The notes below the pieces were generated by a model, which saw nothing but the letters and a program-made list of their open reading frames with translations, ran no database searches and was not told the origin of the DNA. Shown here piece by piece: positions 6,004 to 28,751 of a stretch of 37,937 nucleotides of DNA (the first letter of the stretch is position 1; each line of letters starts with the position of its first letter). The DNA lies in NCBI GenBank assembly GCA_036524115.1, contig DATDCY010000208.1, positions 1-37,937 on the forward strand, given 5' to 3'. The position numbers and the translations under genes were made by a program. Source of the DNA: a bacterium. GTDB lineage: Bacteria > JAUVQV01 > DATDCY01.

Positions 6004-6035
6004 GGTGTCTCTCCTTCGTCCTCCCGGCCCGCCGC

Positions 6036-6797: not shown

Positions 6798-6800
6798 GGC

Positions 6801-7616
6801 CTACCCGAACCTCCCGGAGATATAGTCGTCGGTGCGCTTGTCGCGCGGCACCGTGAAGATCTGCCGCGCCTCGCCGTACTCGACCAGTTCGCCCATGAGG
6901 AAGAAGCCGACCTCGTCGGAGACGCGCGCCGCCTGCTTCGTGTTGTTCGTGACGAGCACGATGCTGTAGCGCGCCTTGAGCTCGGCGAGCGCCTCCTCGA
7001 CCTTGAGCGTCGAGATCGGGTCGAGGCCCGAGCACGGCTCGTCGAGCAGGATCACCTCCGGGTCGAGCGCGATCGTGCGCGCGATGCACAGCCGCTGCTG
7101 CTGCCCCCCGGAGAGGCGCAGCGCCGAGGTGCCGAGCCGGTCCTTGACCTCGTCCCAGAGGATCGCCGCCTTGAGCGCCGATTCCACGATCGCGTCGAGG
7201 CGCCCCCGGTCGCGCTCGCCCTTGAGCCGCTGGCCGTAGGCGACGTTCTCGTAGATGCTGCGCGGCAGCGGCACCGGCGTGTCGAAGACCATGCCGACGC
7301 GCCGGCGGATGTCGACCGCGTCGAGCCCGCCCGCGTGGATGTCCGCGCCGTCGAGGAGGATGCGGCCTTCCCGCCGCGCCCCGGCGATGAGGTCGGCCAT
7401 CCGGTTCAGGCACCGCAGGAGCGTGCTCTTGCCGCTGGAGGCGGGACCGACGAGCCCGAGGATGCGGTTGGCCGGCACGTCCAGGGTCACGTCGCGCAGC
7501 GCGGCCTGGCCCCCCGGGTAGAAGAAGGAGAGGCGCTCGACGCGCATCTTCGCGCAGGTGGCGGCGCCCGGGCCGCCGGGCGGGGCCGCGGGCAGGGGGC
7601 AGGCGGGGAGCGTCAC
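6801..7616 (-). CDS. Phosphate ABC transporter ATPase paralogue, PstB2 (no Q-loop Gln, no switch His)
   Basis: This protein is homologous to PstB throughout: Walker A GPASSGKST, signature LSGGQQQRLCIAR (about residue 168), Walker B LLDEPCSGLDPIST, and a C-terminus YISGRFG very like that of PstB1. The Q-loop reads VFDTPVPLP, with Asp in place of Gln (codon 7281-7283). The switch region reads VTNNTKQAARV, with Asn in place of the catalytic His (codon 6945-6947). Start: the GTG at 7616 overlaps the pstA stop by GTGA and has GGAGG five bases upstream, giving 271 residues. The ATG at 7547 would give 248 residues, closer to the usual PstB length, and is a real alternative. Its location in the middle of pst argues for a subunit of the same transporter. 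Confidence 0.9.
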   Translation of the reverse strand: MTLPACPLPAAPPGGPGAATCAKMRVERLSFFYPGGQAALRDVTLDVPANRILGLVGPASSGKSTLLRCLNRMADLIAGARREGRILLDGADIHAGGLDAVDIRRRVGMVFDTPVPLPRSIYENVAYGQRLKGERDRGRLDAIVESALKAAILWDEVKDRLGTSALRLSGGQQQRLCIARTIALDPEVILLDEPCSGLDPISTLKVEEALAELKARYSIVLVTNNTKQAARVSDEVGFFLMGELVEYGEARQIFTVPRDKRTDDYISGRFG

Positions 7617-8455
7617 GAGAACCTCCGCACGATGCGGTGCATCAGCCAGTAGGCCGAGACGTTGATCGCCAGGATCGCGATCATGAGCACCGCGGCGGTG
7701 CCGTAGGCCATCTCCGCGGAAATCCCCTCGCGCGCGAGGATGTAGAAGTGCACGGCGAGCGTGCGCCCCGAGTCGAGCATCGTCGCCGGCGTCATCAGGC
7801 TCGAGCCGGCGGTGAAGATCACCGCGGCGGTCTCGCCGATGCAGCGGCCGAAGCTGAGCATCACCCCGGTCACGATGCCGGGCAGCGCCCCGGGAAGCAC
7901 GACCCGGGTCACGGTCTGCCAGCGCGTCCCGCCGAGCGAGAAGCTGACCTCGCGCTGGGCCCGCGGCACCGCGAGGATCGCCTCCTCGCTCGTGCGGATG
8001 ATCGTCGGCAGCACCATGATCGCCAGCGTCAGCCCGCCGGAGAGCACCGACCAGCCCAGCTTCAGGTAGAGCACGAAGGAAACGAAGCCGAAGAGCCCGA
8101 GGATGATCGAAGGCACGCCGGCGAGGCACTCGGCGGCGAAGCGGATGATCCGCGTCAGCCGGTTCTCGCGCGTGTACTCCGTGAGGTAGATCGCGGTGCC
8201 CACCCCCAGGGGCGTGGCGACGACCAGGGCGACCGCGGAGAGGAAGACCGTGCTGACGATGAAGGGGAAGATGCCCCCGGAGCGACCCATGTCGATCGCG
8301 TGCCCCGTGAAGAAGCGCGCCGAGAAGACCGGGAGCCCCTTGAGCAGCAGGTAGCCGATGATGAAGATCAGCACCGAGAGCGTCAGCGCGGTCAGCAGCA
8401 CGAGCAGGGCCTTGATCAGCCGCTGCGCGAGGTCGGGGTGGATGAGCCGCTTCAC
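7613..8455 (-). CDS. pstA: Phosphate ABC transporter permease PstA
   Basis: This 280-residue inner-membrane protein has about six hydrophobic segments, the first at residues 15-40. It contains the binding-protein-dependent transport signature around LGGTRWQTVTRVVLPGALPGIVTGVMLSFGRCIGETAAVIFTAG, with the EAA-type loop that docks to PstB. It pairs with PstC to form the phosphate channel. The GTG start at 8455 overlaps the pstC stop by GTGA, and its own stop overlaps the pstB2 GTG in the same manner. Confidence 0.95.
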   Translation of the reverse strand: MKRLIHPDLAQRLIKALLVLLTALTLSVLIFIIGYLLLKGLPVFSARFFTGHAIDMGRSGGIFPFIVSTVFLSAVALVVATPLGVGTAIYLTEYTRENRLTRIIRFAAECLAGVPSIILGLFGFVSFVLYLKLGWSVLSGGLTLAIMVLPTIIRTSEEAILAVPRAQREVSFSLGGTRWQTVTRVVLPGALPGIVTGVMLSFGRCIGETAAVIFTAGSSLMTPATMLDSGRTLAVHFYILAREGISAEMAYGTAAVLMIAILAINVSAYWLMHRIVRRFS

Positions 8456-9312
8456 CGCCGCGCCCGCCTGCGGGAGGTCGCCGTGGCGATGAGGTTGAGG
8501 ATCATGATCATCACGAAGAGAATGACCCCGGTCGCGAAGAGCGCCTGCTGGTGCTTGCCCGCGGCGTACCCGAGCTCGAGCGCGATGTTCGAGGTCAGCG
8601 TGCGGATCGGGTCCAGCGGCGAGCGCGGCAGGTCCAGCGCGTTGCCGGTGACCATGATCACGGCCATGGTCTCGCCGATCGCGCGCCCCATGCCGAGGAC
8701 CACGGCCGTGACGATCCCCGAGCGCGCCGCCGGCAGCACCACCTTGTTGACCGTCTGGGCCGTCGTGGCGCCGAGCGCCAGCGATCCCTCGCGGTAGGAG
8801 CGCGGCACGGCCTCGAGCGCGTCCATCGAGATGCTGATGACCGTCGGCAGGATCATGACGCCGAGGATCAGCGCGCCGGCCAGCAGCGAGAGCCCCGGCC
8901 CGCCGAGCTGCGTGCGGATCAGCGGCACCAGGAAGACGACGCCGAGGAAGCCGTAGACGACCGACGGGATGCCGGCGAGCAGCTCGATCGCCGGCTTGAG
9001 CACCCGTCGCACCCGCGGCTTCGAGAACTCGACGAGGAAGATGGCGCAGGAGAGTCCCAGCGGCACGCCGAGCGCCAGCGCCCCTCCGGTGACCAGCAGC
9101 GAGCCCACGATCATCGGCAGCAGGCCGAACCGGCCCTTGGTCGGCGCCCAGTCGAGCGAGCCGAGCATCTTGCCCGGCCCGACCTCGAGGATGAACGGCA
9201 GCCCCTCCTTGAAGATGAAGAACGTGATGACGAAGAGGATCGCGATCGAGGACACCGCGATCAGCGTCAGCGTCAGTTCGATGGCCTTGCGGCCGCCGCG
9301 GTTGGCGCTCAC
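8452..9312 (-). CDS. pstC: Phosphate ABC transporter permease PstC
   Basis: This 286-residue permease opens with ANRGGRKAIELTLTLIAVSS and has about six transmembrane segments. It contains ELLAGIPSVVYGFLGVVFLVP and the EAA-like segment LGATTAQTVNKVVLPAARSGIVTAVVLGMGRAIGETMAVIMV, typical of PstC. It forms the inner-membrane translocation pore with PstA. The GTG start at 9312 was chosen because it overlaps the pstS stop by GTGA, the pattern used at the next two junctions of this operon, and because the frame upstream is not PstC-like. Confidence 0.95.
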   Translation of the reverse strand: MSANRGGRKAIELTLTLIAVSSIAILFVITFFIFKEGLPFILEVGPGKMLGSLDWAPTKGRFGLLPMIVGSLLVTGGALALGVPLGLSCAIFLVEFSKPRVRRVLKPAIELLAGIPSVVYGFLGVVFLVPLIRTQLGGPGLSLLAGALILGVMILPTVISISMDALEAVPRSYREGSLALGATTAQTVNKVVLPAARSGIVTAVVLGMGRAIGETMAVIMVTGNALDLPRSPLDPIRTLTSNIALELGYAAGKHQQALFATGVILFVMIMILNLIATATSRRRARR

Positions 9313-10160
9313 GGCTGCCCCACCGGGACCAGGCCCTCGAGGCCGAGCAGTCGCTGCGCCTCCGGTCCGAGAACGTAGTCGATGAATGCCCGAGCGTTGC
9401 CGGCGGGCTCCTCGCGCGTGAGGAAGAGGAACGGCCGGACGACGGCGTAGCGCTTCGCGAGGATCTCGGCGCGCGACGGCAGGACGCCGTCCACGGCCAG
9501 GGCCTTCACGCGCCGGTCGACCAGGCCGAGCGAGATGTAGCCGAGGGCGTCGGGGTCGCTGGCGACGATCTCGCGCACCGCGCCGTTGGAGTCCTGCACG
9601 AGCGCCCGCGGCGCGATCTGGCGCTTGCCCATGACCATCTCCTCGAACGCCCCGCGCGTGCCCGAGCCCTCCTCGCGGGTGACGAAATGAATTGGGCGGT
9701 CGGGCCCGCCGACGGCGCTCCAGCGGCCGACCTCGCCGGTGAAGATCGCGGCTACCTGTTCGCGGGTCAGGCCGGCGACCGGGTTGGCGGCGTTGACGAT
9801 GATGGCGATGCCGTCGAGCGCGATGGTGACCTGGTGCAGCATCTCCTCGGACTCCTTGAGGTGGCGCGAGGACATGCCGATGGCGGCGGCGCCGGTCTCG
9901 GCCGCCCGGATGCCGGCGGTGGACCCGCCGCCCTGGACGTTGATTGCGCAGCCCGGGTGCGTCGCCATGAAGGTCTCCGCGAGCTTCTCGGCAAAGGGCT
10001 GCACCGAGGTCGACCCGGCCACGGTCAGGGTTGACGTGGCGCCGTCGGCCGCCGGGCGACATGCTCCGGCGAGCACCAAAAAACCAGCCAAAACAAGCAG
10101 GACGGGCCACAGTGGCCCGCGCGTTGCCCGTCGGAGGCGACCGCTCGCTGTCACGACCAT
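9309..10160 (-). CDS. pstS: Phosphate-binding protein PstS (probable lipoprotein)
   Basis: This 283-residue periplasmic phosphate-binding protein has a basic N-terminus, a hydrophobic stretch LLVLAGFLVLAGAC with a lipobox-like AGAC (Cys about 34), then LTVAGSTSVQPFAEKLAE and REEGSGTRGAFEE. The latter two supply the phosphate-binding Ser/Thr/Arg/Gly residues in the PstS family. The C-terminal part LGYISLGLVDRRVKALAVDG matches the family. It is the first gene of the operon. The ATG at 10160 lacks a Shine-Dalgarno and lies about 7 nt from the predicted transcription start; GTG codons two and three residues in are possible alternatives. No two-repeat Pho box is clear, but a TTGACA dyad lies just upstream. 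Confidence 0.93.
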   Translation of the reverse strand: MVVTASGRLRRATRGPLWPVLLVLAGFLVLAGACRPAADGATSTLTVAGSTSVQPFAEKLAETFMATHPGCAINVQGGGSTAGIRAAETGAAAIGMSSRHLKESEEMLHQVTIALDGIAIIVNAANPVAGLTREQVAAIFTGEVGRWSAVGGPDRPIHFVTREEGSGTRGAFEEMVMGKRQIAPRALVQDSNGAVREIVASDPDALGYISLGLVDRRVKALAVDGVLPSRAEILAKRYAVVRPFLFLTREEPAGNARAFIDYVLGPEAQRLLGLEGLVPVGQP

Positions 10161-14801: not shown

Positions 14802-15001
14802 ATTCCCCGTGCCCGCGATGTGCGCCGGGCCCGTCCGACCGTGTTCTCGACAAAGGAGATTCGCGTCGAGGCTGGCGTCTGCCGTCGAGTCCGGTGTGCA
14901 TGATGCTCCTGGTTTATCAATGAGTTGACTGACGATGGCCCGCCCAGCAGCGTCCCGCTCCGCCGCCGGCGCATCGCAGCGGCCCGGGGGGTGGAGGATC
15001 A

Positions 15002-15017
15002 TGGCACGGGAAGTGCA
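15002..15017 (+). promoter_or_regulatory. Sigma-54-type promoter of the pseudopilin operon
   Basis: TGGCACGGGAAGTGCA matches the sigma-54 consensus TGGCACG-N4-TTGCA at all but one position, with the GG and GC doublets 12 nt apart as required. Transcription would start near 15028, leaving an 18-nt leader with a GGGA(G)-type ribosome site before ATG 15046. Confidence 0.7.
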
Positions 15018-15045: not shown

Positions 15046-15573
15046 ATGCGAAAGAGGCTGGGGCACGCTGGCTTCACGATGGTCGAGCTGTCCGTCACCC
15101 TCGCGATCATCGGCATCCTGGCGGCGATCGCCGTCCCGTCGTTCGTCAACATGATGCCGCGGTTCAGGCTGGGCACCGCGACGCAGACGCTCTCCAACGA
15201 ACTGGCGATGGCGCGCATGGCCGCGATCGCCCGCAGCGTCGACGCCGAGGTCGTCATCAACAAGGACACCGAGACGTACACGCTCGCCAGGACCGTCGGC
15301 GGCGCGCCGTACTCGCGCACGACCCTCGGCTCGTCGGTGAGCATCGAGAGTTTGACCTTCGGGGACGAGACCGGCGCGGGCACGAATGCGCCCTCGCCGT
15401 TCACGCTGCAGCTCAACGCGAACGGGACGACGAACGTCGGGCTCCAGCAGATGGCACTGCGCATCACGCTCGCGACCGACGACGGCGCCCACAAGCGCCG
15501 CGTCCTCGTCTGGGCGACCGGCCGCATCCACAGCCAGAAGTGGGCCGGCGGGAACTCCTGGGTCGCGGACTAG
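15046..15573 (+). CDS. Type IV pseudopilin, GspH/FimT family
   Basis: This 175-residue protein starts with a class III (prepilin) signal: MRKRLGHAG, then the hydrophobic stretch FTMVELSVTLAIIGILAAIA, with Gly at -1, Phe at +1 and Glu at +5. The prepilin peptidase PilD would cleave after Gly9. The globular part has NELAMARMAAIARSVDAEVVI, characteristic of the GspH/FimT family, and ends GRIHSQKWAGGNSW. It is the first of four genes encoding minor pilins that prime or tip a type IV pilus or a type II secretion pseudopilus. The start ATG 15046 was chosen for its ribosome site and because it puts the prepilin signal at the N-terminus. Confidence 0.88.
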   Translation: MRKRLGHAGFTMVELSVTLAIIGILAAIAVPSFVNMMPRFRLGTATQTLSNELAMARMAAIARSVDAEVVINKDTETYTLARTVGGAPYSRTTLGSSVSIESLTFGDETGAGTNAPSPFTLQLNANGTTNVGLQQMALRITLATDDGAHKRRVLVWATGRIHSQKWAGGNSWVAD

Positions 15574-15593: not shown

Positions 15594-16103
15594 ATGGCCA
15601 GGACGCGCGTTGCGGGGGGAGCGGCAGGCTTCACGCTCATCGAGGTCATGATCTCCATGTTCTTTCTGGCCTTCATCGTCGGCGAGATGGCGATGATCTC
15701 GACCTACGCGCGGCGCTCGACGGCGTTCGCGCAGCGGCTGACGGAGGCCAACATGTTCGCCGAGGCGGTGCTCGAGAAGTCGCGCAATACGGCCTGGAAC
15801 AACCTCGCCACCCGCTTCAGCGCCCTGGACACCCCGCCGGACCCCATCGTCTTCGACCTGAACAAGGACGGCGTGGTGGAGAGCTACAACGAGACCTGCG
15901 TGGCCGGCGGCACGGTGACCACCTGCACCGCCGTCGCCGGCGCGTACACCATCGAGCGGACCGTGACCCAGTACCTGCCCACAGCGGGCGCGGCGTTCAC
16001 CTCGGCGACGACGGCGGCGGACCTCGGTGTCACGGTGCGCTGGACGGACGCCAAGGGTGTCGCCCAGCAGGTCAGGGTCGCCACGGTGCGGGCGAAATTC
16101 TAG
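15594..16103 (+). CDS. Type IV minor pilin, PilV/GspI-like
   Basis: This 169-residue protein has the prepilin signal MARTRVAGGAAG, then FTLIEVMISMFFLAFIVGEM (cleavage after Gly12, Glu at +5). The remainder, with TEANMFAEAVLEKSRNTAWNNL and a C-terminal VTVRWTDAKGVAQQVRVATVRAKF strand pair, fits PilV-type minor pilins. A segment DLNKDGVVE resembles an EF-hand-like Ca2+ loop. A spacer of 20 nt separates it from the GspH-like gene. The ATG at 15594 has only a weak GGGGAG-type site 9 nt upstream. Confidence 0.85.
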   Translation: MARTRVAGGAAGFTLIEVMISMFFLAFIVGEMAMISTYARRSTAFAQRLTEANMFAEAVLEKSRNTAWNNLATRFSALDTPPDPIVFDLNKDGVVESYNETCVAGGTVTTCTAVAGAYTIERTVTQYLPTAGAAFTSATTAADLGVTVRWTDAKGVAQQVRVATVRAKF

Positions 16104-16138: not shown

Positions 16139-19100
16139 ATGGACGTGAGGGGGCGGGAGACGGGCCGGCGGGTGATCCTGGGCTCCGGGGGGTACTCGCT
16201 CGTCGAGATGATGATCGCGATCGGCATGGCCGTGGTCGTCGGGGCGGGGCTCTACTTCGTCTTCACCGCGCAGCAGCGCTCCTCGCGCTCGCAGAAGACC
16301 TACAACGACCTGCAGACGACCTGCTCGTTTGCGCTGGACACCATCAAGAACGACCTGCTCCTCGCCGGCTACCGCGCGAAGAACGTCACGGAACCGATCA
16401 GCGCCGCCGGCGCGACGGCGGTGACCTTCGAGTTCTGGGACGACAGGGCCAGCTTCGAGCCTCCCTACGACGACATCACACAGTTCACCAACCACACGCA
16501 GGTCACCTACGGGCTCACGGGCGGCAACCTCACGAAGACGATCCGCCGCTGGCACACCCCGGGCGCGGGCGCCTACGACACCCCGCTGACCTTCACGCTC
16601 GCACCGAACGTCTCGGGCCTCGAGTTCCAGTACCTCAAGGAGGACAACCAGCCCTGGACGTCGGCCGAGCCGAAGAACCTCATCCGCAGCGTTCGCGTCT
16701 CGCTCCAGTGCCGGGCGGCGCAGCGGGACGCGAACTTCATCACGGCGAACATCGACAAGTTCCAGACGATCTCCCTCACCGCCGAGGTGCGCCCGCGTAA
16801 CATCGCCGTCTCGGAGAACCCCGAGGACAAGACGCCGCCCGCGGTGCCGCTGAGCCAGCCGGGCTCGATCTTCAAGGCCTGGGACGAGGGGCAGTGCGGC
16901 TGCCTGCAGCTGAAGTGGACGCCGAACGCCGACAGCGACATCGCGGGCTACACCGTCTACTACGGCTTTGCCGCGGGGAGCTACATCGGCCGCGCCCGCG
17001 TCGTGCACCAGGACGCCGCCTACCAGTACTTCACGCTGCGCAACCTCGCGGCCGCCAACGTCCCCTACTACATCGCGCTCGCCGCCTACGACAAGTCCGG
17101 CAACCAGAGCGCCCTGTGCACCCCGATCTCGGCGAACCCGAACCCGAGCGTGCGCACGGAGGCCGGCTCGGGCAGCGACACGACGATAACCCCGCTGCCG
17201 CCCGCGGCGCCCGGCGCGCCCTCGGTGGCGACCCCGGCCGACAACCAGCTCCAGGTCAGCTGGACGAAGACCTACTCGGACTGCATGACCGCCCCGGTCT
17301 TCGGCTACCGCGTCTACCGCAGCGCAAATCCCACGTTCACCCCCCAGGGGACCGCGGCGGGCCTCGGCAACTGCATCGCCGACGAGCGGACCCTGGGGCC
17401 CGACGCGACGAGCTACCTCGACACCGGCGCCGACACGCCGGCGGGGTACCTGGTCGGCTGCGTGCCCTACTACTACAAGATCGCGACGGTCAACTGCGAT
17501 CCGGCCCAGCTCTCCAACTACACGGACCCGGGGGCCGGGACCACGACGACCTACACCGCGGCCCAGTTCGCCTCGATCAGCGGCTCGCCGACCGACGGCA
17601 CGCGCACCTCCTCCCCGGTCCTGAACTCCAAGGCCGGGTATCGCCGCATCATCCTCTCGGTCACGAACCCGTCGCGCGCCGCCGGGCAGTTCCCTGACTT
17701 CACATTCACGCGGATCTACTTCAGCACCGCCGGCTCCCCGCAGCTCAGCGAGACGCGCGATGCAGAAGGGTACAACGTCGTCACCGACCCGGGCGGCGGC
17801 CCGGCGCGCCTGATTCCCGACGGGGGCGGCATCGTCGCCGGCGGCGGCGGCCCGTACACGATCAACTTCGACGACGAGGACTCGGAGATCCCGAACGGGT
17901 CGCCGGCGGGGATCGGCAACCCGCAGCTGAACAAGGACGCGACCTACTACTTCCTCGCGGTGGCCTATGACCGCTGCAAGAACCACAGCGAGGACACCGC
18001 GGAGGCGCGTTCCACGGCCGAGCAGTGCAGCGACTGTCTCGTCGGCGAGGTGTGCCGCGACGCGCCCCCGCCCGCCATGGACCTGCGCGTCACCCAGGGA
18101 TGCAACGGGGCGCCCCTGCGCCTGGAGTGGAACTACGACGCGGGCAACTACATCACGAACCCGGACTTCCAGGGCTTCCGCGTGGTGCGCTGCCAGGGCG
18201 CCGGCTGCGTGCCGCTGGACCCGGCGCTGGGCGGCGGCGGGACCGTCCTCGGGGGCACCTACCTCTCGCCGGACACCTACCTGCTGGACGACAGCGTCGT
18301 GGACGGCCAGATCTACAACTACCGCGTCTACGCGGGCGACTGCTACTACCAGCGCTGGCTCGAGGGTCAGGCGATCGACCCCGCCAACGACCCGACGAAC
18401 AACGCGGCCTCGACCAGCATCTCGGGCATCGCCCTCGGCTTCTTCGATCGTGCCCACGTCGTCGGCGACCTCGAGACGACGCTGACCGCCGACATTGACT
18501 CGGTGCAGAACACGATCCCCGTCGCCTCGACCGTCGGCTGGACGCACCGGCAGATCCAGATCAACTCCGAGGTCATCGAATGCAACGGGGTGACGCCGAC
18601 CGAGTTCACGGACTGCTGGTGGCGCGGGGCCGAGGGGACGGTGGCCATCTCGCACACCGCGGGCACGCCGGTGCGCAGCTACCCGCCCGCACCCGCGCGC
18701 GCGGCCGTGACCGGCGACCTCTCGCTGGTGCCGCCGACGTTCCTCCACAACTTCGTCCTGGTCGGCGCGCGCAACACCTCGGCGGGCCAGCTCCGCCTCA
18801 CCGAGCTGGAAAGCTCCTGGGAGGACCCGGCCGCCTTCTTCACGCGCCTGCTCTACTACGACCAGGCCGGCACCGCCACGGTCCTGATGGAGGATACCGT
18901 CCCGTTCCAGCACGGCTCCTCCGGCAGCATCGCCGTCCTGCAGCCGGTGGACGTCGACCCGCAGCTGGACAACATCCCGCTGAAGCTGACCTTCCTCAAG
19001 GCCGACGGGACGGCGGACAGCTCACTGGACCTGCGCGAGGAGCCCATCGACCTGCGCTGGCACTATCGCAACAACGCCACGGGGATCGACACCTGCATGC

Positions 19101-20953
19101 GCGCGTGGGCGCCGCCGGCGCCCGAGGGCATCATCGCACCGCAGGGCCCCACGATCATGGGCACGACGCAGAGCGCCCCGACGTGGGGGACGGTCGCCTG
19201 GCCGGTGCCGGGGCTGCAGAACAACCCCCCGGACGCCGTCGTCGTGCCGAGCGGCTCCTGGAACTTCGTCCAGACGAACGTGCACGACACCTCGGGGACG
19301 GGCATCGCGTCGGTGCGCCTCTACTACACGACGACCGACCCCGGCGTCGACGTCGCGCCGGCGGTCAGCGGCGCCTACCCGGGCTGCGACCCCTACACCA
19401 TGGTCGAGCTGACCAACTGGGCCGGCACCGAGATCTGGTCCGGGTCGTTCCCGGCCTGGCCGATCCAGCCGTCTTCGCTCGACGGCCGGAACGTCTGGTT
19501 CTTCGTCGTCGCGGTGGACAACGAGGGGAACTTCGACCGCGAGCCGGAGGTCAACCAGGGCGCCTTCCAGTACTTCCAGCAGCCCGAGGACCCCTGCCTG
19601 AACACGCCGCGGGCGCCCGAGCTGACCGGGACGTCGGACGCCTCGAGCGTCAGGCTCGACTGGTCCGGCTCGTGGTGGGGGCCGCCGCCGACCTACTACA
19701 ACACGAACTGGTCGGTCTGCACCGATCTGGCCGGCTTCCGGGTCTACCACCAGATCGGCCAGCGCTCCTGGAACGAGGTGGCCGGCTCGCCCTTCCCGGC
19801 GACGACGCAGAACTACACGAAGACCTTCACGATCGCGGTCGCGACGCTGGCCGGTGCGGTCGGCCTCGCCGACAGCACGCTGCCGGTGAACAGCACCGCC
19901 GGCTTCCTCCCGAGCGGCGGGAAGGTCAGGATCGACACCGAAATCATCAACTGCACCGGGGTCACCGTGGACAGCTTCACCGGCTGCACCCGTGCGGTCG
20001 ACGGGACGACCGCGGCCACCCACGCGCCGGGCGCCGGCGTGACGCAGGACCTGATCGCGCTGTATGCCAACTCCTTCTTCGTCCGCGCCTTCGATACCTG
20101 CGGCACGGGGGTGAAATTCTCGGATTCGGCGATCTTCACCGAGGGCTTCTGCTCGCCGCGCTGCCAGATGCAGGTCTGGCCCTCCGGGACGAGCATCCAG
20201 CCAGGCGACACGGTCTGGGTCCAGATCCAGGCCTGCGAGAAGGCCGGCAACGGCTCGGCCGACACGATCTACGTGCACACGTGCTCCTCGGTCGAGGGCG
20301 ATGACTTCGCCCTCACGGAGAGCGGGGACAGCGGCTGGTTCTCGGGGAGCTTCTCGACGCAGCTGGCCAACTCGGCTGGGGGCGGCAACGCGGTCCTGAT
20401 GGTGCGCGCCGACGACACGATCACGATCGGCGGGTTCGAGTCGGGCCCCAGCGGCTTCGGGAACCTCGACGTCTGCACCGGGCACACCTACAGCTGCGGC
20501 GCGGCGCAGACCGTCACGGTCCACACCCTGGGCGCGGACGTCTGCGCGGACGACCACACGCCGCCGGTGCCGAGCGGGGTGAGCACGACGAAGGTCGGCA
20601 GCTGCTCGACCGAGTCGGTGCTGCCCAACAACACCAAGCAGCTCACCGTGAGCTGGAGCAAGGTCTCGCCGCCGCCCGGTTGCACGCGGATGTACTACCG
20701 CGGCTACCAGTGCGAGACGGCCGGGTGCACGCCCTCGACCCCGATCAACGGCTTCTTCGCCTCGGAAGCGGGCAATTGCCCTGGTGGCACGACCTGCACC
20801 AGCAACCAGATCGCGGAGGCCTCCAAGCTCGATTCTAAGGTGTACCGCTTCGCCGTCTCCGCGGTCTGCGAGATCGACAATTGCTCGACGGCGCCGACGA
20901 TCCGGACGTGGGAGAGCGCCGTGAGCGGCGTCGCCGACGACCCCTGCCCGTGA
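16139..20953 (+). CDS. Giant PilW-like pseudopilin fused to a FN3/beta-rich adhesin region (1604 aa)
   Basis: Residues 1-225 are PilW-like: prepilin signal ending GSGG, then YSLVEMMIAIGMAVVVGAGL (Glu at +5), then TYNDLQTTCSFALDTIKNDLLLAGYR. Ordinary PilW proteins end near residue 300. Here about 1,370 further residues follow: FN3-like modules at about 230-335 (LQLKWTPNADSDIAGYTVYYG), 354-465 (QVSWTKTYSDCMTAPVFGYR) and 640-755, others near 1160-1225, and many cysteines. A module of about 70 residues occurs twice (about 779-849 and 1233-1303), with consensus PVxSTxG(F/W), then x-I-x-(T/S)E-(V/I)-I-x-C-x-G-V-T, then GTxAxxHxxGxxV. ATG 16139 follows GGGGAGG. It is in one operon with PilV- and PilX-like genes; there is no PilY1, whose tip-adhesin role it may fill. 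Confidence 0.85.
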   Translation: MDVRGRETGRRVILGSGGYSLVEMMIAIGMAVVVGAGLYFVFTAQQRSSRSQKTYNDLQTTCSFALDTIKNDLLLAGYRAKNVTEPISAAGATAVTFEFWDDRASFEPPYDDITQFTNHTQVTYGLTGGNLTKTIRRWHTPGAGAYDTPLTFTLAPNVSGLEFQYLKEDNQPWTSAEPKNLIRSVRVSLQCRAAQRDANFITANIDKFQTISLTAEVRPRNIAVSENPEDKTPPAVPLSQPGSIFKAWDEGQCGCLQLKWTPNADSDIAGYTVYYGFAAGSYIGRARVVHQDAAYQYFTLRNLAAANVPYYIALAAYDKSGNQSALCTPISANPNPSVRTEAGSGSDTTITPLPPAAPGAPSVATPADNQLQVSWTKTYSDCMTAPVFGYRVYRSANPTFTPQGTAAGLGNCIADERTLGPDATSYLDTGADTPAGYLVGCVPYYYKIATVNCDPAQLSNYTDPGAGTTTTYTAAQFASISGSPTDGTRTSSPVLNSKAGYRRIILSVTNPSRAAGQFPDFTFTRIYFSTAGSPQLSETRDAEGYNVVTDPGGGPARLIPDGGGIVAGGGGPYTINFDDEDSEIPNGSPAGIGNPQLNKDATYYFLAVAYDRCKNHSEDTAEARSTAEQCSDCLVGEVCRDAPPPAMDLRVTQGCNGAPLRLEWNYDAGNYITNPDFQGFRVVRCQGAGCVPLDPALGGGGTVLGGTYLSPDTYLLDDSVVDGQIYNYRVYAGDCYYQRWLEGQAIDPANDPTNNAASTSISGIALGFFDRAHVVGDLETTLTADIDSVQNTIPVASTVGWTHRQIQINSEVIECNGVTPTEFTDCWWRGAEGTVAISHTAGTPVRSYPPAPARAAVTGDLSLVPPTFLHNFVLVGARNTSAGQLRLTELESSWEDPAAFFTRLLYYDQAGTATVLMEDTVPFQHGSSGSIAVLQPVDVDPQLDNIPLKLTFLKADGTADSSLDLREEPIDLRWHYRNNATGIDTCMRAWAPPAPEGIIAPQGPTIMGTTQSAPTWGTVAWPVPGLQNNPPDAVVVPSGSWNFVQTNVHDTSGTGIASVRLYYTTTDPGVDVAPAVSGAYPGCDPYTMVELTNWAGTEIWSGSFPAWPIQPSSLDGRNVWFFVVAVDNEGNFDREPEVNQGAFQYFQQPEDPCLNTPRAPELTGTSDASSVRLDWSGSWWGPPPTYYNTNWSVCTDLAGFRVYHQIGQRSWNEVAGSPFPATTQNYTKTFTIAVATLAGAVGLADSTLPVNSTAGFLPSGGKVRIDTEIINCTGVTVDSFTGCTRAVDGTTAATHAPGAGVTQDLIALYANSFFVRAFDTCGTGVKFSDSAIFTEGFCSPRCQMQVWPSGTSIQPGDTVWVQIQACEKAGNGSADTIYVHTCSSVEGDDFALTESGDSGWFSGSFSTQLANSAGGGNAVLMVRADDTITIGGFESGPSGFGNLDVCTGHTYSCGAAQTVTVHTLGADVCADDHTPPVPSGVSTTKVGSCSTESVLPNNTKQLTVSWSKVSPPPGCTRMYYRGYQCETAGCTPSTPINGFFASEAGNCPGGTTCTSNQIAEASKLDSKVYRFAVSAVCEIDNCSTAPTIRTWESAVSGVADDPCP

Positions 20954-20978: not shown

Positions 20979-22412
20979 ATGAAGGCGCACATGGCGACGA
21001 AGAAGCGGCAGGGCCTGCGCCCCTCGCCGCTGGCGAACGAGCGCGGGATGCTCCTGGTGATCACGATGGTCATCCTGCTCGTGGTCTCGACGCTGGCGGC
21101 GGCGAACCTCATCAACGCCTTCCTCGAGCGCAGCCTCGCGAAGAACCAGAACAACGCGACAGTCGCGCTCAATGCGGCCGACGGCGGCGTCCAGGACGGG
21201 CTGACGTGGCTCAACAACGACGTGAACCTGCCGACCATCCCCACGGCGACGAACCCCTGGACGCGCCCCGGCGACCCGGTGACGCGCGCCGGTCTCTCGA
21301 GCGGCGCGACCTACACCGTGAACCTCTCGTTCAAGCGGGACGCCGAGGACCAGGACTGCGACGGCCGCACCGACGACATCGTGGTCTTCAACAAGGGGGG
21401 GCTGGCCCTCGCCTGTCCCCACGACGGGTACTTTCCATTCCCCGGGGCGTACTTTTCGGGAGCGGCGGGGGACGAGGGCTACCCCGTGATCACGATCAAC
21501 TCCAAGGGCTACCTCGGGACCCTCGCCAGCAACCGCGGCTACCGTGAGATCGAGATGGACGTCGCGCGCAACAAGCTTCAGGCGCAGGTGGAGGGCGCGT
21601 TCACGGCGCGGGCCGGGGTCACGACCTCCGGCTCCGCGCACACCGACGGGCGCAACCACGATCTCACGGGGGGCCTCGTCGGCGGTGGCACCGGGTGCAT
21701 GGGCGACAAGCCGGGCATCACGTACGACGCCGGACTGGCGCTGACCGAGACCTGTCCCAACGCGAACATCGACGGCAATCCCTGTGTGGCCAACTACGAC
21801 CCGAGCGCCCACGGCGGCGAGCCCATCAAGAAGACTCCCTGGGGGGTGCTCGGACTCTCGCAGGCTGACTTCGCCTCGATGTTCATCAAGAAGAACAAGC
21901 CCTCCCCGCCCTTCGCGCCGAACACGCCGCAGGACCAGCTGGACATGACCGAGTGCTACCCGAAGCAGCAGTACGTCTGGTTCTACAGCGACTTCACGAC
22001 GCCCGGCAGCAACGTCCAGTACACGACGTCCTCGCCCTGCAACAATTACGGGGGCATCCTGGTGATCCACAACGAGAACTTCGATCCCGATCAATGGGAG
22101 GCGCGCTGCTTTGCCGGCTCCACCGACGCCTACTGCAGCGCCGACGCCGACGCCGACGGACGGCCGGACAATGCCCCGGCGGTCTTCAGCATGCAGGGCA
22201 ACGTCCAGTGGACCGGGATCGTCATCGCGGACCAGGTCGTCAAGGTCACCGGCACGCCGACGATCCTGGGCGGCGTCATTTCGCTCGCATCAGGCGGCGT
22301 CATCGAGTCGGACATCACCGGCGACATCGACATCCAGTACAGCTGCGAGGCGATCAGCGGGGCCACCAACCAGGGCTACAAGACCCGCCTCGGCTGGCGC
22401 CGGCTGCGGTAG
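20979..22412 (+). CDS. PilX-like type IV pilus assembly protein
   Basis: The 477-residue protein has the PilX N-terminal pattern: a basic stretch, NERGMLLVITMVILLVVSTL (hydrophobic helix from about residue 24), then AFLERSLAKNQNNATVALNAADGGVQDGLTWL. It lacks the Glu+5 of true prepilins, as PilX-type members often do. The C-terminal half is beta-rich with polar repeats (GGILVIHNENF, GNVQWTGIVIADQVVKVTGTPTILGGVIS). Two Ca2+-loop-like motifs DQDCDGRTDD and DADADGRPDN are present. The start ATG 20979 follows GAGG with an 8-nt spacer; an in-frame GTG at 20961 is less likely. It is the last gene of the pilin operon, 25 nt after PilW. Confidence 0.82.
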   Translation: MKAHMATKKRQGLRPSPLANERGMLLVITMVILLVVSTLAAANLINAFLERSLAKNQNNATVALNAADGGVQDGLTWLNNDVNLPTIPTATNPWTRPGDPVTRAGLSSGATYTVNLSFKRDAEDQDCDGRTDDIVVFNKGGLALACPHDGYFPFPGAYFSGAAGDEGYPVITINSKGYLGTLASNRGYREIEMDVARNKLQAQVEGAFTARAGVTTSGSAHTDGRNHDLTGGLVGGGTGCMGDKPGITYDAGLALTETCPNANIDGNPCVANYDPSAHGGEPIKKTPWGVLGLSQADFASMFIKKNKPSPPFAPNTPQDQLDMTECYPKQQYVWFYSDFTTPGSNVQYTTSSPCNNYGGILVIHNENFDPDQWEARCFAGSTDAYCSADADADGRPDNAPAVFSMQGNVQWTGIVIADQVVKVTGTPTILGGVISLASGGVIESDITGDIDIQYSCEAISGATNQGYKTRLGWRRLR

Positions 22413-22432
22413 CCGCGGGCGTCAGATTCCTC

Positions 22433-22459
22433 GGCCCGGGGGGAGCTTCCTCCCGGGCC
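22433..22459. terminator. Bidirectional hairpin between pilin operon and cytochrome gene
   Basis: GGCCCGGGGGG-AGCTT-CCTCCCGGGCC forms an 11-bp stem (one G-T wobble) between the PilX-like stop at 22412 and the stop of the convergent cytochrome gene at 22470. On the plus strand it is followed by a short T-containing run (GTGTTCTT). Confidence 0.7.
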
Positions 22460-22469
22460 GCCGTGTTCT

Positions 22470-24521
22470 TCAGCGTCCGGCGGCAGGCAAGTACGATTTC
22501 GTGACGTGGCAGCCGCCGACGCACCGGCCCCCGGCCCCGACCTTGTGGAACTCGAGCTGGAGGCAGGGCACGCCGTTGCAGTCGAGCACGCGCCGGACCA
22601 GACGGGGGCCCTCGGTGGCGTGCGGGTCGTGGCAGTTGCGGCAGGTCACGCCGGGCTGGACGCGGGTGCCGACCTCGTTCTTCGAGACCCGGTCGCGCAG
22701 GTGCAGGGCATGGAGGTTGCTCTCACCGTCGGCGAAGCCCGTGTCCGCCGCGCGGGAGGGATCGGTGAGCGCCCCCTCGTCGTGGCACTCCCAGCACAGG
22801 CCGAAGCGGCCCGGGTCGAACGGCAGGTACTGCTCGAGGGGGTAGGGGCGCACCAGCAGTCCCGGCGCGGCCGCGTCATGCGGCGGGTGGCAGGCGGCGC
22901 AGTCCCCTGAACTCACGGGGTCGTGGACCGCCTCCCCTGCGAAGCGCTCGCGCTTGTGGCACTCGAAGCAGAGGGCCGCGCGCGGTTCGCGCAGCAGCCT
23001 GGTCTCGCGGGCCGCGTGGGCGCGGTGGCAGCCGAGGCACCCCTTCCCCGCGAGCGCGCCGTGGCGGTACGCACCGCGGCCGACGTCGTCGTGGCACTGG
23101 CGGCACGTGTCCGCGGCCGTGCCCTCGATGCGCCAGCCCTTCGCCGGGTCCCCGTGGCAGGCGCCGCAGTCCCGCTCCTCGAAGGGGGGATGGCGCCGCG
23201 CGTAGATGAAGCCGGGGGAGTCGCCGCCGTGGGGGTCGTGGCACTCGGTGCAGCGGCTCCCGGCGAGCGCGAAGCCGCCGTGGCCCGCCGCTGCCGCCGC
23301 CGCGCGCAGGTCGTGGCAGCGGGAACAGACCCTGTCCTCCGGCCCGAGCAGCACCAGGCGGTTCTCCGGCCCGTGGTCGAGATGGCAGGCGCTGCAGGCG
23401 CCCGAGCGTACCGGGTCGTGCGGGCGTCCCTGCGAGAAGCGGCGGACGTCCTTCTCGTGGCAGCCCACGCAGCGGCGGTTGATGCTCTCCTCGAGGGGGG
23501 TGGGGTTGGCGAGCGCCCCGCGCGCGCTCCGGAACGCAACGGGGGGCGGAGGCTCGCGCAGCAACTCCTGCACCGCCTGCGGCAGGGCCTCGGCGCCGCG
23601 CGAGAAGGCGTAGGACTGGGCGGTGTGGCACCCCGAGAGGCACTGCCCGCCGAGATCGGTGCGCTCGTAGTCCAGCTTCAGGCACGGGATGCCGTCGCAG
23701 TCGAGGTCGCGCCGCACGAGCCGGGGGCTGTCCGAGGTGTGGACCTCGTGGCAGGCGCGGCAGGACACCGCGCGGGGCGCCGCCCCCGGGGCGCCGTTGC
23801 GCAGGTGGAGGGCGTGGTAGTTGCGCCCGTTCCCCCGGAAGAGCGTCCGCTCGGCGTCGGCCGTGAAGAACGACTCGCGCGCGTGGCACCCCAGGCAGAG
23901 AGCCGCGTCGCGCTCGCCACCGGCGGTGCGCCCGAGCGCATAGCGCGCCGTGAGCAGGAAGGGCTCGCGCGAGGCGTGCGGATCGTGGCAGGAGAGGCAT
24001 TGCCCCTGCCTGACCGGGGCGTGCTGGATGCGCCGAGCGAATTCCTCCCCGCCGTGGCAGCCGAGGCACAGTTCCCTGACCGGCTTCACCAGCCGGCCGT
24101 CGTAGCGGTGGCACTGGTCGCAGCGTCCGAAGGCGAGTGGCCGGTGGCGGTTCGGCACCAGCAGGTGCTCCTCGGCCGAACGGTGGGGGTCGTGGCACGA
24201 CACGCACCGGGCCTTGGGGCCCCGGATCTCGCGGTGAGCCTTCAGGAACGCGCGCTCGCCGGTGTCGTGGCAGCCGTCGCATACGGCGTTGCCGTCGGCG
24301 GTGAGCACCAGCCGCTCGTCGGCGCCGTGGTCCGCATGGCAGGCGTCGCATTCATCGTCCTGGAACGGCGGGTGAGTGCTGCGGCTGCCGGCGCCGACGT
24401 CCTTCTTGTCGTGGCATTCGAGACACCCATCAGAGGCCCCGACGGGCGGCGGCGCGAGGATGAGCACGAGTGCCGTCAGGAAGGCTGCCGGAGCGGCTGA
24501 GCGCAGGCGTCGCAAGGGCAT
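22470..24521 (-). CDS. Multihaem c-type cytochrome, about 22 haem motifs (two duplicated halves)
   Basis: The 683-residue exported protein has a signal peptide (LRRLRSAAPAAFLTALVLIL, cleavage near ASDG) followed at once by CLECH. I count 20 CxxCH motifs and two CxxxCH motifs (CLSGCH about residue 293, CVGGCH about 667), giving about 22 haems. Many occur as pairs of the doubled-CXXCH kind. Each CxxxCH ends a matching 70-75-residue module with HALHLR, then CRxCHxxH, then PRLVRRxLDC(D/N)G(I/V)PCL and LGGQC- or GAGGRC-like cysteines, so the protein looks like a duplicated half. It is probably periplasmic or outer-surface electron-transfer. Start ATG 24521 sits right after AGGGGAA; an in-frame GTG at 24539 is possible. 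A TTGAAG-N17-CTATCT promoter ends at the ATG. Confidence 0.88.
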   Translation of the reverse strand: MPLRRLRSAAPAAFLTALVLILAPPPVGASDGCLECHDKKDVGAGSRSTHPPFQDDECDACHADHGADERLVLTADGNAVCDGCHDTGERAFLKAHREIRGPKARCVSCHDPHRSAEEHLLVPNRHRPLAFGRCDQCHRYDGRLVKPVRELCLGCHGGEEFARRIQHAPVRQGQCLSCHDPHASREPFLLTARYALGRTAGGERDAALCLGCHARESFFTADAERTLFRGNGRNYHALHLRNGAPGAAPRAVSCRACHEVHTSDSPRLVRRDLDCDGIPCLKLDYERTDLGGQCLSGCHTAQSYAFSRGAEALPQAVQELLREPPPPVAFRSARGALANPTPLEESINRRCVGCHEKDVRRFSQGRPHDPVRSGACSACHLDHGPENRLVLLGPEDRVCSRCHDLRAAAAAAGHGGFALAGSRCTECHDPHGGDSPGFIYARRHPPFEERDCGACHGDPAKGWRIEGTAADTCRQCHDDVGRGAYRHGALAGKGCLGCHRAHAARETRLLREPRAALCFECHKRERFAGEAVHDPVSSGDCAACHPPHDAAAPGLLVRPYPLEQYLPFDPGRFGLCWECHDEGALTDPSRAADTGFADGESNLHALHLRDRVSKNEVGTRVQPGVTCRNCHDPHATEGPRLVRRVLDCNGVPCLQLEFHKVGAGGRCVGGCHVTKSYLPAAGR

Positions 24522-24623
24522 TTCCCCTAGATAGCACACATGGAGTCCGTCCTTCAAGAAGCCGCAGCGCGGGGACGGCGCGTGGACCCTGCCATCGATC
24601 GGAGCAGCGCGTCGAGGAAGAAA

Positions 24624-24639
24624 TGTGACTTGCATCACA
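24624..24639. promoter_or_regulatory. CRP/FNR-family operator (TGTGA-N6-TCACA)
   Basis: TGTGACTTGCATCACA is a perfect match to the CRP-type consensus. It lies in the divergent region between the cytochrome gene (start 24521) and the surface-protein gene (start 24833). For the likely plus-strand promoter (-35 TTGCAT 24630-24635, -10 TATTAT 24652-24657) it overlaps the -35 box, so repression or promoter remodelling fits better than class II activation. Confidence 0.55.
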
Positions 24640-24832: not shown

Positions 24833-27259
24833 ATGGGCAGCTCATCGAAAAGGGGGTGGAATTCCCCGCGATCTTGGGTAGTGTCCTGCGCACTGGTCTG
24901 CCTGTTCGCGGCCGCTGGCATCCTGGGCGGGGCGCAGGCCGGTCTGGCGGCGGGTGACTTTCCCCTGAGGCCGTTGCCCGGGGCCCCTGTCTTCAGCTCG
25001 ACCCCCGGCCCGTACAAGCTTGCGTATCAGGGCACGGGCACCTTCGACGGGGGGAGCGCCGCGTTGAGCCTGACCCTCGACGGTGCGCCCGTGGGTGCCT
25101 ACCTGTACCTCGCCGGCACGGACGACAACCGTCCGGGCGGCGATCCGAACGTGCGCGTGGCGATCACGAACGGGAGCGGGACGACCCGCGTCATCAACGT
25201 GGTGCCGGTTGTCTACGCCACCCCAACCGTTCCCGCCCAGTACGTCAGCCGGGTCGAGATCACCCGCTACCTCTCCCGGGGGAAGAACACGCTGGCGATC
25301 TCGGGGTACGACCTCGAGACCCCGGACGCCGCGTTCGTCTTCGCCGTATTCGACGGCGGCGCCGACGCATCGCTGAAGTACATCCTGGTCCGCGACGGCG
25401 CGGACATCGGCTGGTACCCGGAACTGCCGCCGCTCGGGCCTGACAGCGAGGCCGTGAGCTTCCGGTTCGCTCCGGCCGTCACGGGGCGACAGGGGAGCGT
25501 GCTGCTGGCAATCACGGACGGCGATTCCGGTCGCGGCGACGAGGTCCTCGGGTTCACCGGGACGGGATTCCCATCCGACCAGCTGACCGACACCGATGCC
25601 GACGGGCGCCTCGACATCGTCAACCGCCGGGTGGCGTTGACGGCAGTCGACACCCCGCCGCGGGGGAACGATCCGGCGAACGCCGGGGGGACGCTCGAGG
25701 CGAGGCGCGGGGCGTTCAGCCTCGAGGAGGACTGCCTCGGCGAGCCGGTCGCCACCGGCGGGTGCGCGATCGGCCCGAACTTCGGCCTCGTGAGCGGGCG
25801 GTACCCGATCCCGCCGGGGCACCGGCACGCGGAATTCCAGATCCAGTCCGAGGACCCGGAAGACGGCGACAGTTTCATGCTGTTCTTCGCCCTCGCCGTG
25901 GTGCCGTACAATGAGACGGTCGACCCGCTTCCCGACATCCAGGTGGTCAAGAACGTGACGCCGACGGTGATGCCGGAGCCGGGCGGCCCTGCTGACTTCG
26001 AGGTGATCGTCACCATCCCCGTCTGGTCCGAGGAGAGCGTGTGGGTCACCTCGCTCGTCGATGACGTGTTCGGCAACCTCACGGGCAGAGGGACGTGTCT
26101 CCTGCCGCGGTCGCTGCCGCGGGGCGGCTCGTACCGCTGCACCTTCACGGCGCCGGTCAGCGGGACCGTGGAGCGGCGCCACCGCGATGTGGTGACCGTC
26201 TCCGGCGTGGGGATGATCTCCCGCGCGCCCGTGAGCGCCAGCGACGATGCGATCGTGAACTTCACCCGTGACATGCCCGGCAGGATCATCGTGCAGAAGG
26301 TGACGGTGCCCGAGGGGGCGCCGGCGCTGCAGTTCGGCTTCACGGCCAGCTACAACGCGGCCGGGTTCCAGCTGGCCAACGGCCAGAGCAACGACAGCGG
26401 GGATCTGGTGGCCGGGACGTACAGCGTCGCCGAGACGATGCCGCTGCCGGCCAACTGGACGCTGGAGTCGGCGGTGTGCGACGACCAGAGCCCGGTGGGT
26501 GCGATCTCGCTGCAGGCGGGCGAGACGGTGACGTGCGTCTTCACGAACCGGTACACGCCCACGCCCGGCATCCGCATCGACAAGACGGCCTCGCCCCTCG
26601 AGGTCTACCCGGGCGACCCGGTCACGTACACCTACACGGTGACCAACACCGGCAGTGTGGTCCTTGTTGACATCACGGTCACGGACGACCGCATCGCCGG
26701 CCAGATTGCGGCGGTTCCCAGGCTCGAGCCAGGAGAGAGCTTCACGGTGACGAGGACCGTTGTGGCACCGGCTTGCGGCCAGGCAGGAACGACATCTACT
26801 CCGTGCAGTCAGCTGCCTACGTCACTATTTGGCCCTGTCCCGGAGCCGCATCTCGTGACCTGCTATCTTCGCAACATTGCGACAGTTGAAGCCTACGAGC
26901 CAGCGCTGAGGATCATGGCGACGGATTCCGATGACGCCTGTATCAAGATTCTGCCGTTCAGTGCCGTTGGCAACCGCGTCTGGGAGGACCTTGGCAACCT
27001 GGGGATCAGAGACGCCGGCGAGCCGGGCATCAGGGGAGTGAGAATATCGCTGCTCAAGGATGGCGTCGTGATAGCGAGAACGGTCACAGACGACCTGGGC
27101 CGGTATTCCTTCGAGAACCTCAGGGCCGGTACATACGTTGTCGACCCGGATGACGTTCCGGGATATCGGCTGACGACGGGGAACGACCCGTTGCCGGTGA
27201 CCCTGCATGTTGGCGAGTACTTTACACTCGCCAATTTCGGCTTCCAGTTGTTGCCCTGA
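24833..27259 (+). CDS. Secreted surface protein with DUF11-like and SdrD_B/Cna-B-like domains
   Basis: The 808-residue protein has a signal peptide (SWVVSCALVCLFAAAGILGG, cleavage near GLAAG). Residues about 30-360 are beta-rich and unassigned. From about 365 there is a DUF11-like domain (IQVVKNVTPTVMPEPGGPADFEVIVTIP). About 485-575 is a prealbumin-like/Cna-type domain (IIVQKVTVPEGAPALQFGFTAS; AGTYSVAETMPLPANWTLES; GETVTCVFTNRY). About 580-670 is a DUF11/DUF7507-like repeat (IDKTASPLEVYPGDPVTYTYTVTNTG). About 706-805 is an SdrD_B domain (VGNRVWEDLGNLGIRDAGEPGIRGVRISLL, DDLGRYSFENL). No LPXTG or PEP-CTERM signal is seen. The last 600 bases have visibly lower G+C than the rest. A CRP-like site and long leader precede it. 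Confidence 0.83.
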   Translation: MGSSSKRGWNSPRSWVVSCALVCLFAAAGILGGAQAGLAAGDFPLRPLPGAPVFSSTPGPYKLAYQGTGTFDGGSAALSLTLDGAPVGAYLYLAGTDDNRPGGDPNVRVAITNGSGTTRVINVVPVVYATPTVPAQYVSRVEITRYLSRGKNTLAISGYDLETPDAAFVFAVFDGGADASLKYILVRDGADIGWYPELPPLGPDSEAVSFRFAPAVTGRQGSVLLAITDGDSGRGDEVLGFTGTGFPSDQLTDTDADGRLDIVNRRVALTAVDTPPRGNDPANAGGTLEARRGAFSLEEDCLGEPVATGGCAIGPNFGLVSGRYPIPPGHRHAEFQIQSEDPEDGDSFMLFFALAVVPYNETVDPLPDIQVVKNVTPTVMPEPGGPADFEVIVTIPVWSEESVWVTSLVDDVFGNLTGRGTCLLPRSLPRGGSYRCTFTAPVSGTVERRHRDVVTVSGVGMISRAPVSASDDAIVNFTRDMPGRIIVQKVTVPEGAPALQFGFTASYNAAGFQLANGQSNDSGDLVAGTYSVAETMPLPANWTLESAVCDDQSPVGAISLQAGETVTCVFTNRYTPTPGIRIDKTASPLEVYPGDPVTYTYTVTNTGSVVLVDITVTDDRIAGQIAAVPRLEPGESFTVTRTVVAPACGQAGTTSTPCSQLPTSLFGPVPEPHLVTCYLRNIATVEAYEPALRIMATDSDDACIKILPFSAVGNRVWEDLGNLGIRDAGEPGIRGVRISLLKDGVVIARTVTDDLGRYSFENLRAGTYVVDPDDVPGYRLTTGNDPLPVTLHVGEYFTLANFGFQLLP

Positions 27260-28673: not shown

Positions 28674-28687
28674 GTGACCGCGGTCAC
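28674..28687. promoter_or_regulatory. Perfect palindrome upstream of the IgGFc/DUF11-type gene
   Basis: GTGACCGCGGTCAC is a 14-nt perfect palindrome 64 nt upstream of the start of the large secreted protein and 25 nt after the greA stop. It could be an operator or part of the greA terminator; there is no further evidence. Confidence 0.35.
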
Positions 28688-28751
28688 AGCCTGCGGCCTT
28701 GCGCCGGGGCTACCTTCGCAGGCGACAATCACCGTACGGGAGGGGTGTCGC

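Follow-up and report, generated by a model that had tools for sequence, protein, structure and literature searches.

Introduction

The minor-pilin operon studied here raises the question of what a PilW-type subunit of 1,604 residues does in a gene set without PilY1. PilY1 is treated as the standard tip effector of diderm type IVa pili, and modular pilins are thought to fill this role in monoderms. The preliminary description of the locus suggested that the long PilW may itself be the tip adhesin. This suggestion was followed up in the window (the whole analysed stretch of DNA, 37,937 nucleotides), in the genome to which it belongs and in genomes containing related proteins.

Modular pilins, those with FN3 modules included, are an established class, comprising more than 1,200 proteins with 264 architectures; the FN3 entry IPR003961 is among the 15 commonest extra domains (PMC8179133). 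PilB from Streptococcus sanguinis is a demonstrated adhesin (PMC8179133), and the effector role in those monoderm pili that have no PilY1 is played by modular pilins (PMC9934059). FimU/T, PilV, PilW and PilX start pilus assembly and are found at the tip together with PilY1 (PMC7541494). No paper linking PilW with FN3 was found in the collection of literature searched.

The operon and its promoter

The gene order is fimT–pilV–long pilW–pilX, the long pilW being the third gene. The following elements were identified:

15002..15017, plus strand: sigma-54 (−24/−12) promoter-like element TGGCACGGGAAGTGCA, 28 bases upstream of the fimT start, 10 of 11 consensus positions
15046..15573, plus strand: FimT/GspH-like minor pilin gene; N_methyl 26.2 bits (cut-off 21.2), GspH-type matches
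15594..16103, plus strand: PilV-like minor pilin gene; TIGR02523 PilV E 1.5e-5, under cut-off; N_methyl
16139..20953, plus strand: long modular pilW gene encoding 1,604 aa (about 169 kDa after maturation), with full-length relatives
20979..22412, plus strand: PilX/GspK-like minor pilin gene; PilX_N 21.1 bits (cut-off 25.5), same place in relatives
22432..22460, plus strand: strong intrinsic terminator with a 13-pair stem, closing the operon

The start of the fimT-like gene is better set at 15046 than at 14935, with the sigma-54-type element at 15002–15017. This element is the sole match with at most one mismatch in the window, where 0.56 are expected by chance. Elements of this type, matching 9–11 of the 11 positions, lie 13–53 bases upstream of fimT at all 11 loci inspected, that of the window included. 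Shuffled sequences reach the score of the element in less than 1% of cases at nine of these loci, and in 5% and 10% of cases at the other two. The position of the element upstream of fimT fits control by PilSR-type regulators, which are encoded beside the operon in relatives. The presence of PilV-, PilW- and PilX-like genes without PilY1 in the operon, noted in the preliminary description, was confirmed. The operon contains no gene for a CofJ-like secreted partner.

The prepilin leader and the pilin module

The N-terminal part of the protein is encoded by two segments:

16139..16192, plus strand: prepilin leader, residues 1–18; cleavage predicted after G18
16193..16822, plus strand: PilW/GspJ-type pilin module, residues 19–228; family profile, structural model, Foldseek match to the XcpGHIJK pseudopilus

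The G+C content of the ORF at 16139–20953 by codon position is 0.58/0.53/0.97, which is of the coding type and similar to that of the operon neighbours. The leader ends with ...LGSGG18, and the predicted mature chain (pI 4.5, 42 cysteines) starts with YSLVE23MMIAIGMAVVVGAGLYFVF. G18 (position −1) and E23 (mature position +5), as in type IV prepilins, are invariant across all 11 aligned sequences.

On the protein from the window, N_methyl and fn3 yielded 13 and 22.3 bits, respectively, both below the cut-offs; among the 11 family members, N_methyl matched 10 and fn3 matched six (best E 1.5e-17), and relatives exceeded the cut-offs of both models. No curated PilW or GspJ model scored above its cut-off for the window protein: Pfam and NCBIfam yielded no PilW model at E 0.1, and PRK10557 gave 16 bits against a cut-off of 120. 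The profile of the long-PilW family matched ordinary PilW proteins (about 200–400 residues) from many genomes, with E down to 5.9e-39, over positions ~20–227 only. Since ordinary PilW aligns to the first ~230 profile positions only, the limits of the pilin module were set accordingly, and the assignment as PilW follows from the profile relation and the operon place, not from a curated model.

AlphaFold models were built from 3–4 sequences and had poor mean pLDDT (42 and 39); only the pilin part and the FN3 matches were used. The model of residues 1–775 contains a 55-residue α1 helix (21–75) and a beta sheet (94–217), with confidence of 60–79 in most blocks of the pilin part. A Foldseek search, which covered the low-confidence model of the N-terminal half, returned FN3 tandems and a chain of the XcpGHIJK pseudopilus of the type II secretion system (T2SS). 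Structure prediction, proposed earlier as a check, was informative for the pilin part and the FN3 matches; the overall confidence of the models was low.

Together with the invariant G18 and E23 and the profile relation, the predicted α1 helix and beta sheet bear out the prepilin signal and the PilW-type domain reported in the preliminary description. The protein combines a class III (prepilin) signal, G−1, a hydrophobic α1 and E5 with C-terminal extra modules that are not pilus-specific, as modular pilins do; its relation to ordinary PilW, the fimT–pilV–pilW–pilX slot and the machine genes in the genome characterize it as a PilW of the type IVa system.

The domain chain of the arm

The pilin module is followed by an arm of ~1,376 residues, in agreement with the very long beta-rich extension initially claimed for the 1,604-residue protein. 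FN3-type modules were detected by mutual cross-matches of HMMs built from segments of the alignment (best E 4e-21). The arm consists of about ten small beta domains, at least six of them FN3-type modules:

16844..17158, plus strand: FN3-type module 1, residues 236–340; fn3 22.3 bits, cross-matches with other modules
17192..17563, plus strand: FN3-type module 2, residues 352–475; cross-matches modules 1, 4, 5 and 6
17588..18034, plus strand: FN3-type module 3 (divergent), residues 484–632; weak cross-matches
18056..18373, plus strand: FN3-type module 4, residues 640–745; cross-matches with modules 2 and 6, down to E 2e-9 for each
18479..18673, plus strand: 65–70-residue module, copy A, residues 781–845; 37% identity to copy B, E 1e-12
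18716..19168, plus strand: central beta domain, residues 860–1010; conserved columns, beta strands modelled with moderate confidence
19172..19603, plus strand: Ig-like beta domain, residues 1012–1155; nearly invariant columns, ending in the conserved motif GNFDRxPE..QGAF.Y
19616..20263, plus strand: FN3-type module 5, residues 1160–1375; cross-matches module 6 to E 4e-21, split by copy B
19844..20041, plus strand: 65–70-residue module, copy B, residues 1236–1301; inside FN3-type module 5
20270..20563, plus strand: beta domain, residues 1378–1475; conserved among most relatives, missing from the 1,017-aa relative
20564..20950, plus strand: FN3-type module 6, residues 1476–1604; HMM cross-matches

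The 1,017-aa relative, from Deltaproteobacteria C24 bin.90, stops at the end of the Ig-like domain. The full family profile also matches solved structures, both of pilins (Geobacter geopilin and a PilA) and of FN3 domains from fibronectin, DCC and chitinase A1. Thus the FN3-like and other beta modules ascribed to the arm earlier were recovered and supplemented with a module present in two copies. No ligand-binding signature and no catalytic or lectin domain was found in the arm by domain-model searches. If extended, six FN3 domains and several other beta domains would span approximately 30 nm.

The 65–70-residue module, with a consensus like TLPV.STAGF...E.I.CTGVT..SFTGC.R...GT..TH..G..V, is unnamed by Pfam and occurs also in large proteins of other genomes (loci L006 and L010).

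The pilus machine and other pilin sets of the genome

The genome is a draft with 95% completeness. PilB (787 bits, cut-off 676), PilT (484, cut-off 319) and PilM (299, cut-off 133) score above the curated cut-offs, and for PilC the top-scoring model reaches 563 bits, short of its cut-off of 700. One contig (C140) carries pilB–pilT–pilC together with genes for a sensor kinase and for a response regulator of the sigma-54 type, and pilM–pilN–pilO are located at the end of another (C358). PilP and PilQ were not seen in this draft, and no major pilin gene was clearly recognised among the prepilin-motif matches of the assembly; the latter was probably lost in assembly gaps or is divergent.

A second minor-pilin set, fimT–pilV–short pilW–pilX, is encoded on contig C38 beside radC (locus L037, 5400–8073), without an adjoining PilY1; a canonical pilY1 in a further pilin operon, named as a refuting result in the preliminary description, was looked for and not found at this set. 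Its counterpart in the other genome of the order (G001, contig C250; locus L040, 8667–11425) also contains a short PilW and no PilY1. The genome also encodes a T2SS (contigs C306 and C58), whose own GspI, GspJ and GspK are on C58.

Relatives with a long PilW

A scan of genome contigs with the single protein found no relatives, and the family was recovered by an alignment-based search, in which most of the remaining matches were FN3 domains alone, in ORFs lacking a prepilin motif. The long PilW architecture is present in 12 genomes, this one included, with a length of ~1,017–1,642 residues where intact. A second genome of the order, deposited under the name Candidatus Rokuibacteriota CSMAG_2148, has a syntenic long PilW that is cut by the contig end. 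The protein of C24 bin.90 (1,017 aa) is encoded downstream of pilD–pilS–pilR, and that of GWB2_55_19 has 1,472 aa. A search of 395 genomes from the phylum to which GWB2_55_19 belongs added eight more, seven of them intact (~1,385–1,642 aa) and one in two pieces.

Long PilW forms a rare family, and its position within the pilus operon is retained across several groups of bacteria. Among the 12 genomes, pilR lies beside the long pilW in seven, and pilM–Q genes in six. The order in GWB2_55_19 and its nearer relatives is pilD–pilS–pilR–fimT–pilV–long pilW–pilX–pilM–pilN–pilO–pilP–pilQ–aroC, and in three genomes (G073, G147 and G111) the operon follows a kinase and an NtrC-type regulator, with pilM not adjoining. 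No relatives were found on plasmids. The spread of long PilW, proposed as a check in the preliminary description, thus extends to 12 genomes, and conserved columns occur over the entire length of the protein; as judged from these sequences, the architecture is inherited, not accidental. In a quick tree of pilin modules every long PilW falls on one side of a branch, whose low support (71) makes a single origin compatible with the tree, not proven by it.

The gap of 500–600 bases between pilX and pilM, which recurs at three loci (L189, L190 and L191), contains a small helix-turn-helix ORF in L191 (13456–13653). No Rfam or tRNA match was obtained in the L191 gap upstream of pilM.

Distribution of PilY1

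The search for pilY1 elsewhere in this genome, also proposed in the preliminary description, gave no match to PF05567. Nor was a C-terminal PF05567 beta-propeller found in the long PilW itself. Among the 12 long-PilW genomes this domain scores above the cut-off only in G179 and G257; there was no match in G000 (the genome studied here), G001, G060 and six further genomes, and the best match in G058 was sub-threshold (11.8 bits, E 0.79). In G179 and G257 PilY1 belongs to a second operon, pilV–short pilW–pilX–pilY1, 2.9 kb from the short PilW, and the long PilW lies 740 kb away or on another contig.

PilY1 is encoded in 2 of the 12 genomes with long PilW versus 39 of the 51 with short PilW only (Fisher p 2e-4), in a comparison with genomes picked from the best PilW matches, not at random. 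It lies within 7 kb of none of the 11 long PilW genes versus 34 of the 57 short ones (p 4e-4); distances were computed for eight of the 11, and for G000, G058 (where the contig ends soon after pilX) and G363 the absence follows from genome searches and reading of the loci. The p-values ignore shared ancestry, the genomes are drafts, and only about four long-PilW lineages are represented; therefore this contrast is suggestive, not proven.

Proposed role of the long PilW

The neighbourhood of PilY1, often encoded beside short PilW, never beside long PilW and kept apart from it in the two genomes having both, lends support to the tip-adhesin idea of the preliminary description. The PilW slot, the absence of PilY1 from the operon and from detection in the genome, and the similar state of relatives agree with it; the replacement is not universal, as two relatives still encode PilY1 in a different operon, and the tip position and the binding are our reading of these data. 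By the same logic as for tip minor pilins and modular pilins, the effector arm is most likely carried to the tip by the long PilW itself. This protein probably replaces PilY1 as the effector at the tip of the pilus.

In this scheme PilD would remove the leader, and the pilin module would assemble with FimT, PilV and PilX into the complex from which the filament starts and which hence forms its tip. The slender FN3-like chain would pass the PilQ secretin, be displayed at or beside the tip, and bind surfaces or other cells there, so that the long PilW would assume in this operon the effector role held by PilY1 in other diderm type IVa pili. When PilW3 of Myxococcus xanthus carried a bulky sfGFP at its C-terminus, the machine was jammed (PMC7541494); therefore either a slim arm or an adapted machine is required. 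Published models place PilW below PilV, PilX and PilY1 (PMC13190605). Given this placement and the block caused by the C-terminal fusion, the arm may project sideways. We consider this explanation as a whole, a type IVa PilW acting as a modular pilin with its arm at or near the tip in the effector role of PilY1, somewhat more probable than all others taken together. The broader proposition, that in several diderm lineages PilY1 of type IVa pili was replaced by a giant PilW, priming pilin and adhesin forming one covalent chain, and that some species keep both as interchangeable sets, is plausible but falls slightly short of an even chance.

The main competitor, which we hold to be rather unlikely, is a mechanical or structural arm (a stalk, a spacer, a secretin plug or a carrier of an unlinked adhesin) that itself binds nothing. 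Tandems of FN3 and Ig-like domains commonly serve as spacers, and the lack of a recognisable catalytic or lectin domain agrees with such a use. CofB, the carrier of the secreted adhesin CofJ, sets a precedent for an adapter (PMC8179133), but no partner of this kind is encoded in the operon; moreover, the conserved cysteines and the conserved non-repetitive middle and Ig-like parts suggest more than a spacer. Another reading, in which a canonical but divergent PilY1 from elsewhere in the genome serves this pilin set and the long arm is an additional module, is improbable. PilY1 N-termini vary widely, the genome is an incomplete draft, and G179 and G257 encode both proteins; yet PF05567 recognises PilY1 in most comparison genomes while leaving nine long-PilW genomes blank, and in G179 and G257 it is the short PilW, not the distant long one, that has PilY1 ~3 kb away.

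Since PilW and GspJ are homologous, the protein might also be a GspJ-like minor pseudopilin whose arm recruits secreted substrates; the XcpGHIJK filament match and the T2SS of the genome are in line with that. This reading was rejected as very improbable: the T2SS has separate GspI, GspJ and GspK genes, and synteny disfavours it, the long-PilW operon of relatives adjoining pilD, pilS, pilR and pilMNOPQ. Finally, an ordinary PilW could have been joined to an unrelated adhesin ORF by chance fusion or misassembly, the window being a draft metagenome contig. The same architecture in 11 relatives, with columns conserved over the whole length, makes such an artefact extremely improbable, and it was also rejected.

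Comparison with known systems

PilB (vWA) and PilC (lectin module) from S. sanguinis resemble the favoured reading of the long PilW as a tip effector: they combine an N-terminal pilin with C-terminal modules and are presumed tip effectors of pili without PilY1 (PMC8179133, PMC9934059). Unlike them, the long PilW is a PilW subunit of a diderm type IVa system, with a contrast in PilY1 within its clade. The most extreme multi-domain protein in the survey of modular pilins has 860 residues (PMC8179133), versus 1,017–1,642 residues with many modules in the long PilW. The FimU/T–PilV–PilW–PilX–PilY1 priming complex of M. xanthus and Pseudomonas has the same operon slot and pilin module (PMC7541494, PMC13190605), but its PilW is of ordinary size and its effector is a separate PilY1. 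The PilY1/PilC tip adhesin, a large beta-rich protein shown at the type IVa tip, shares the proposed role; it has the PF05567 beta-propeller, whereas the long PilW, a pilin in its own right, has none. Large minor pilins that bear C-terminal domains and are located at the tip also include CofB and TcpB (type IVb), ComZ (Thermus) and KilN/TadG (Tad pili) (PMC8179133, PMC12075869), but these belong to other pilus classes and their extra domains are unrelated to those considered here.

New here is a conserved giant-PilW family in diderm type IVa operons, tied to the pilus machine by linkage and promoter and never found beside PilY1. A diderm family with a giant PilW and no PilY1 in its pil operon would connect the diderm and monoderm solutions and would allow the need for PilY1 to be tested in a natural setting. 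In the tip that it would provide, the adhesive part could not come off the priming pilin. The family also sets a test of the size of a folded arm able to pass the PilQ secretin.

Other genes in the window

The minus-strand gene at 22470–24638, facing the pilin operon, encodes a multihaem c-type cytochrome of 722 aa, which contains 20 CXXCH motifs and matches the doubled CXXCH / decahaem families. On the plus strand, 24833–27259 and 28674–31778 encode two large secreted proteins, possibly further surface proteins, in which SdrD_B, SpaA-like, DUF11 and DUF7507 domains were recognised. As read from the translations, a phosphate uptake cluster (PhoU, PstB, PstA, PstC) occupies ~5300–10110 on the minus strand.
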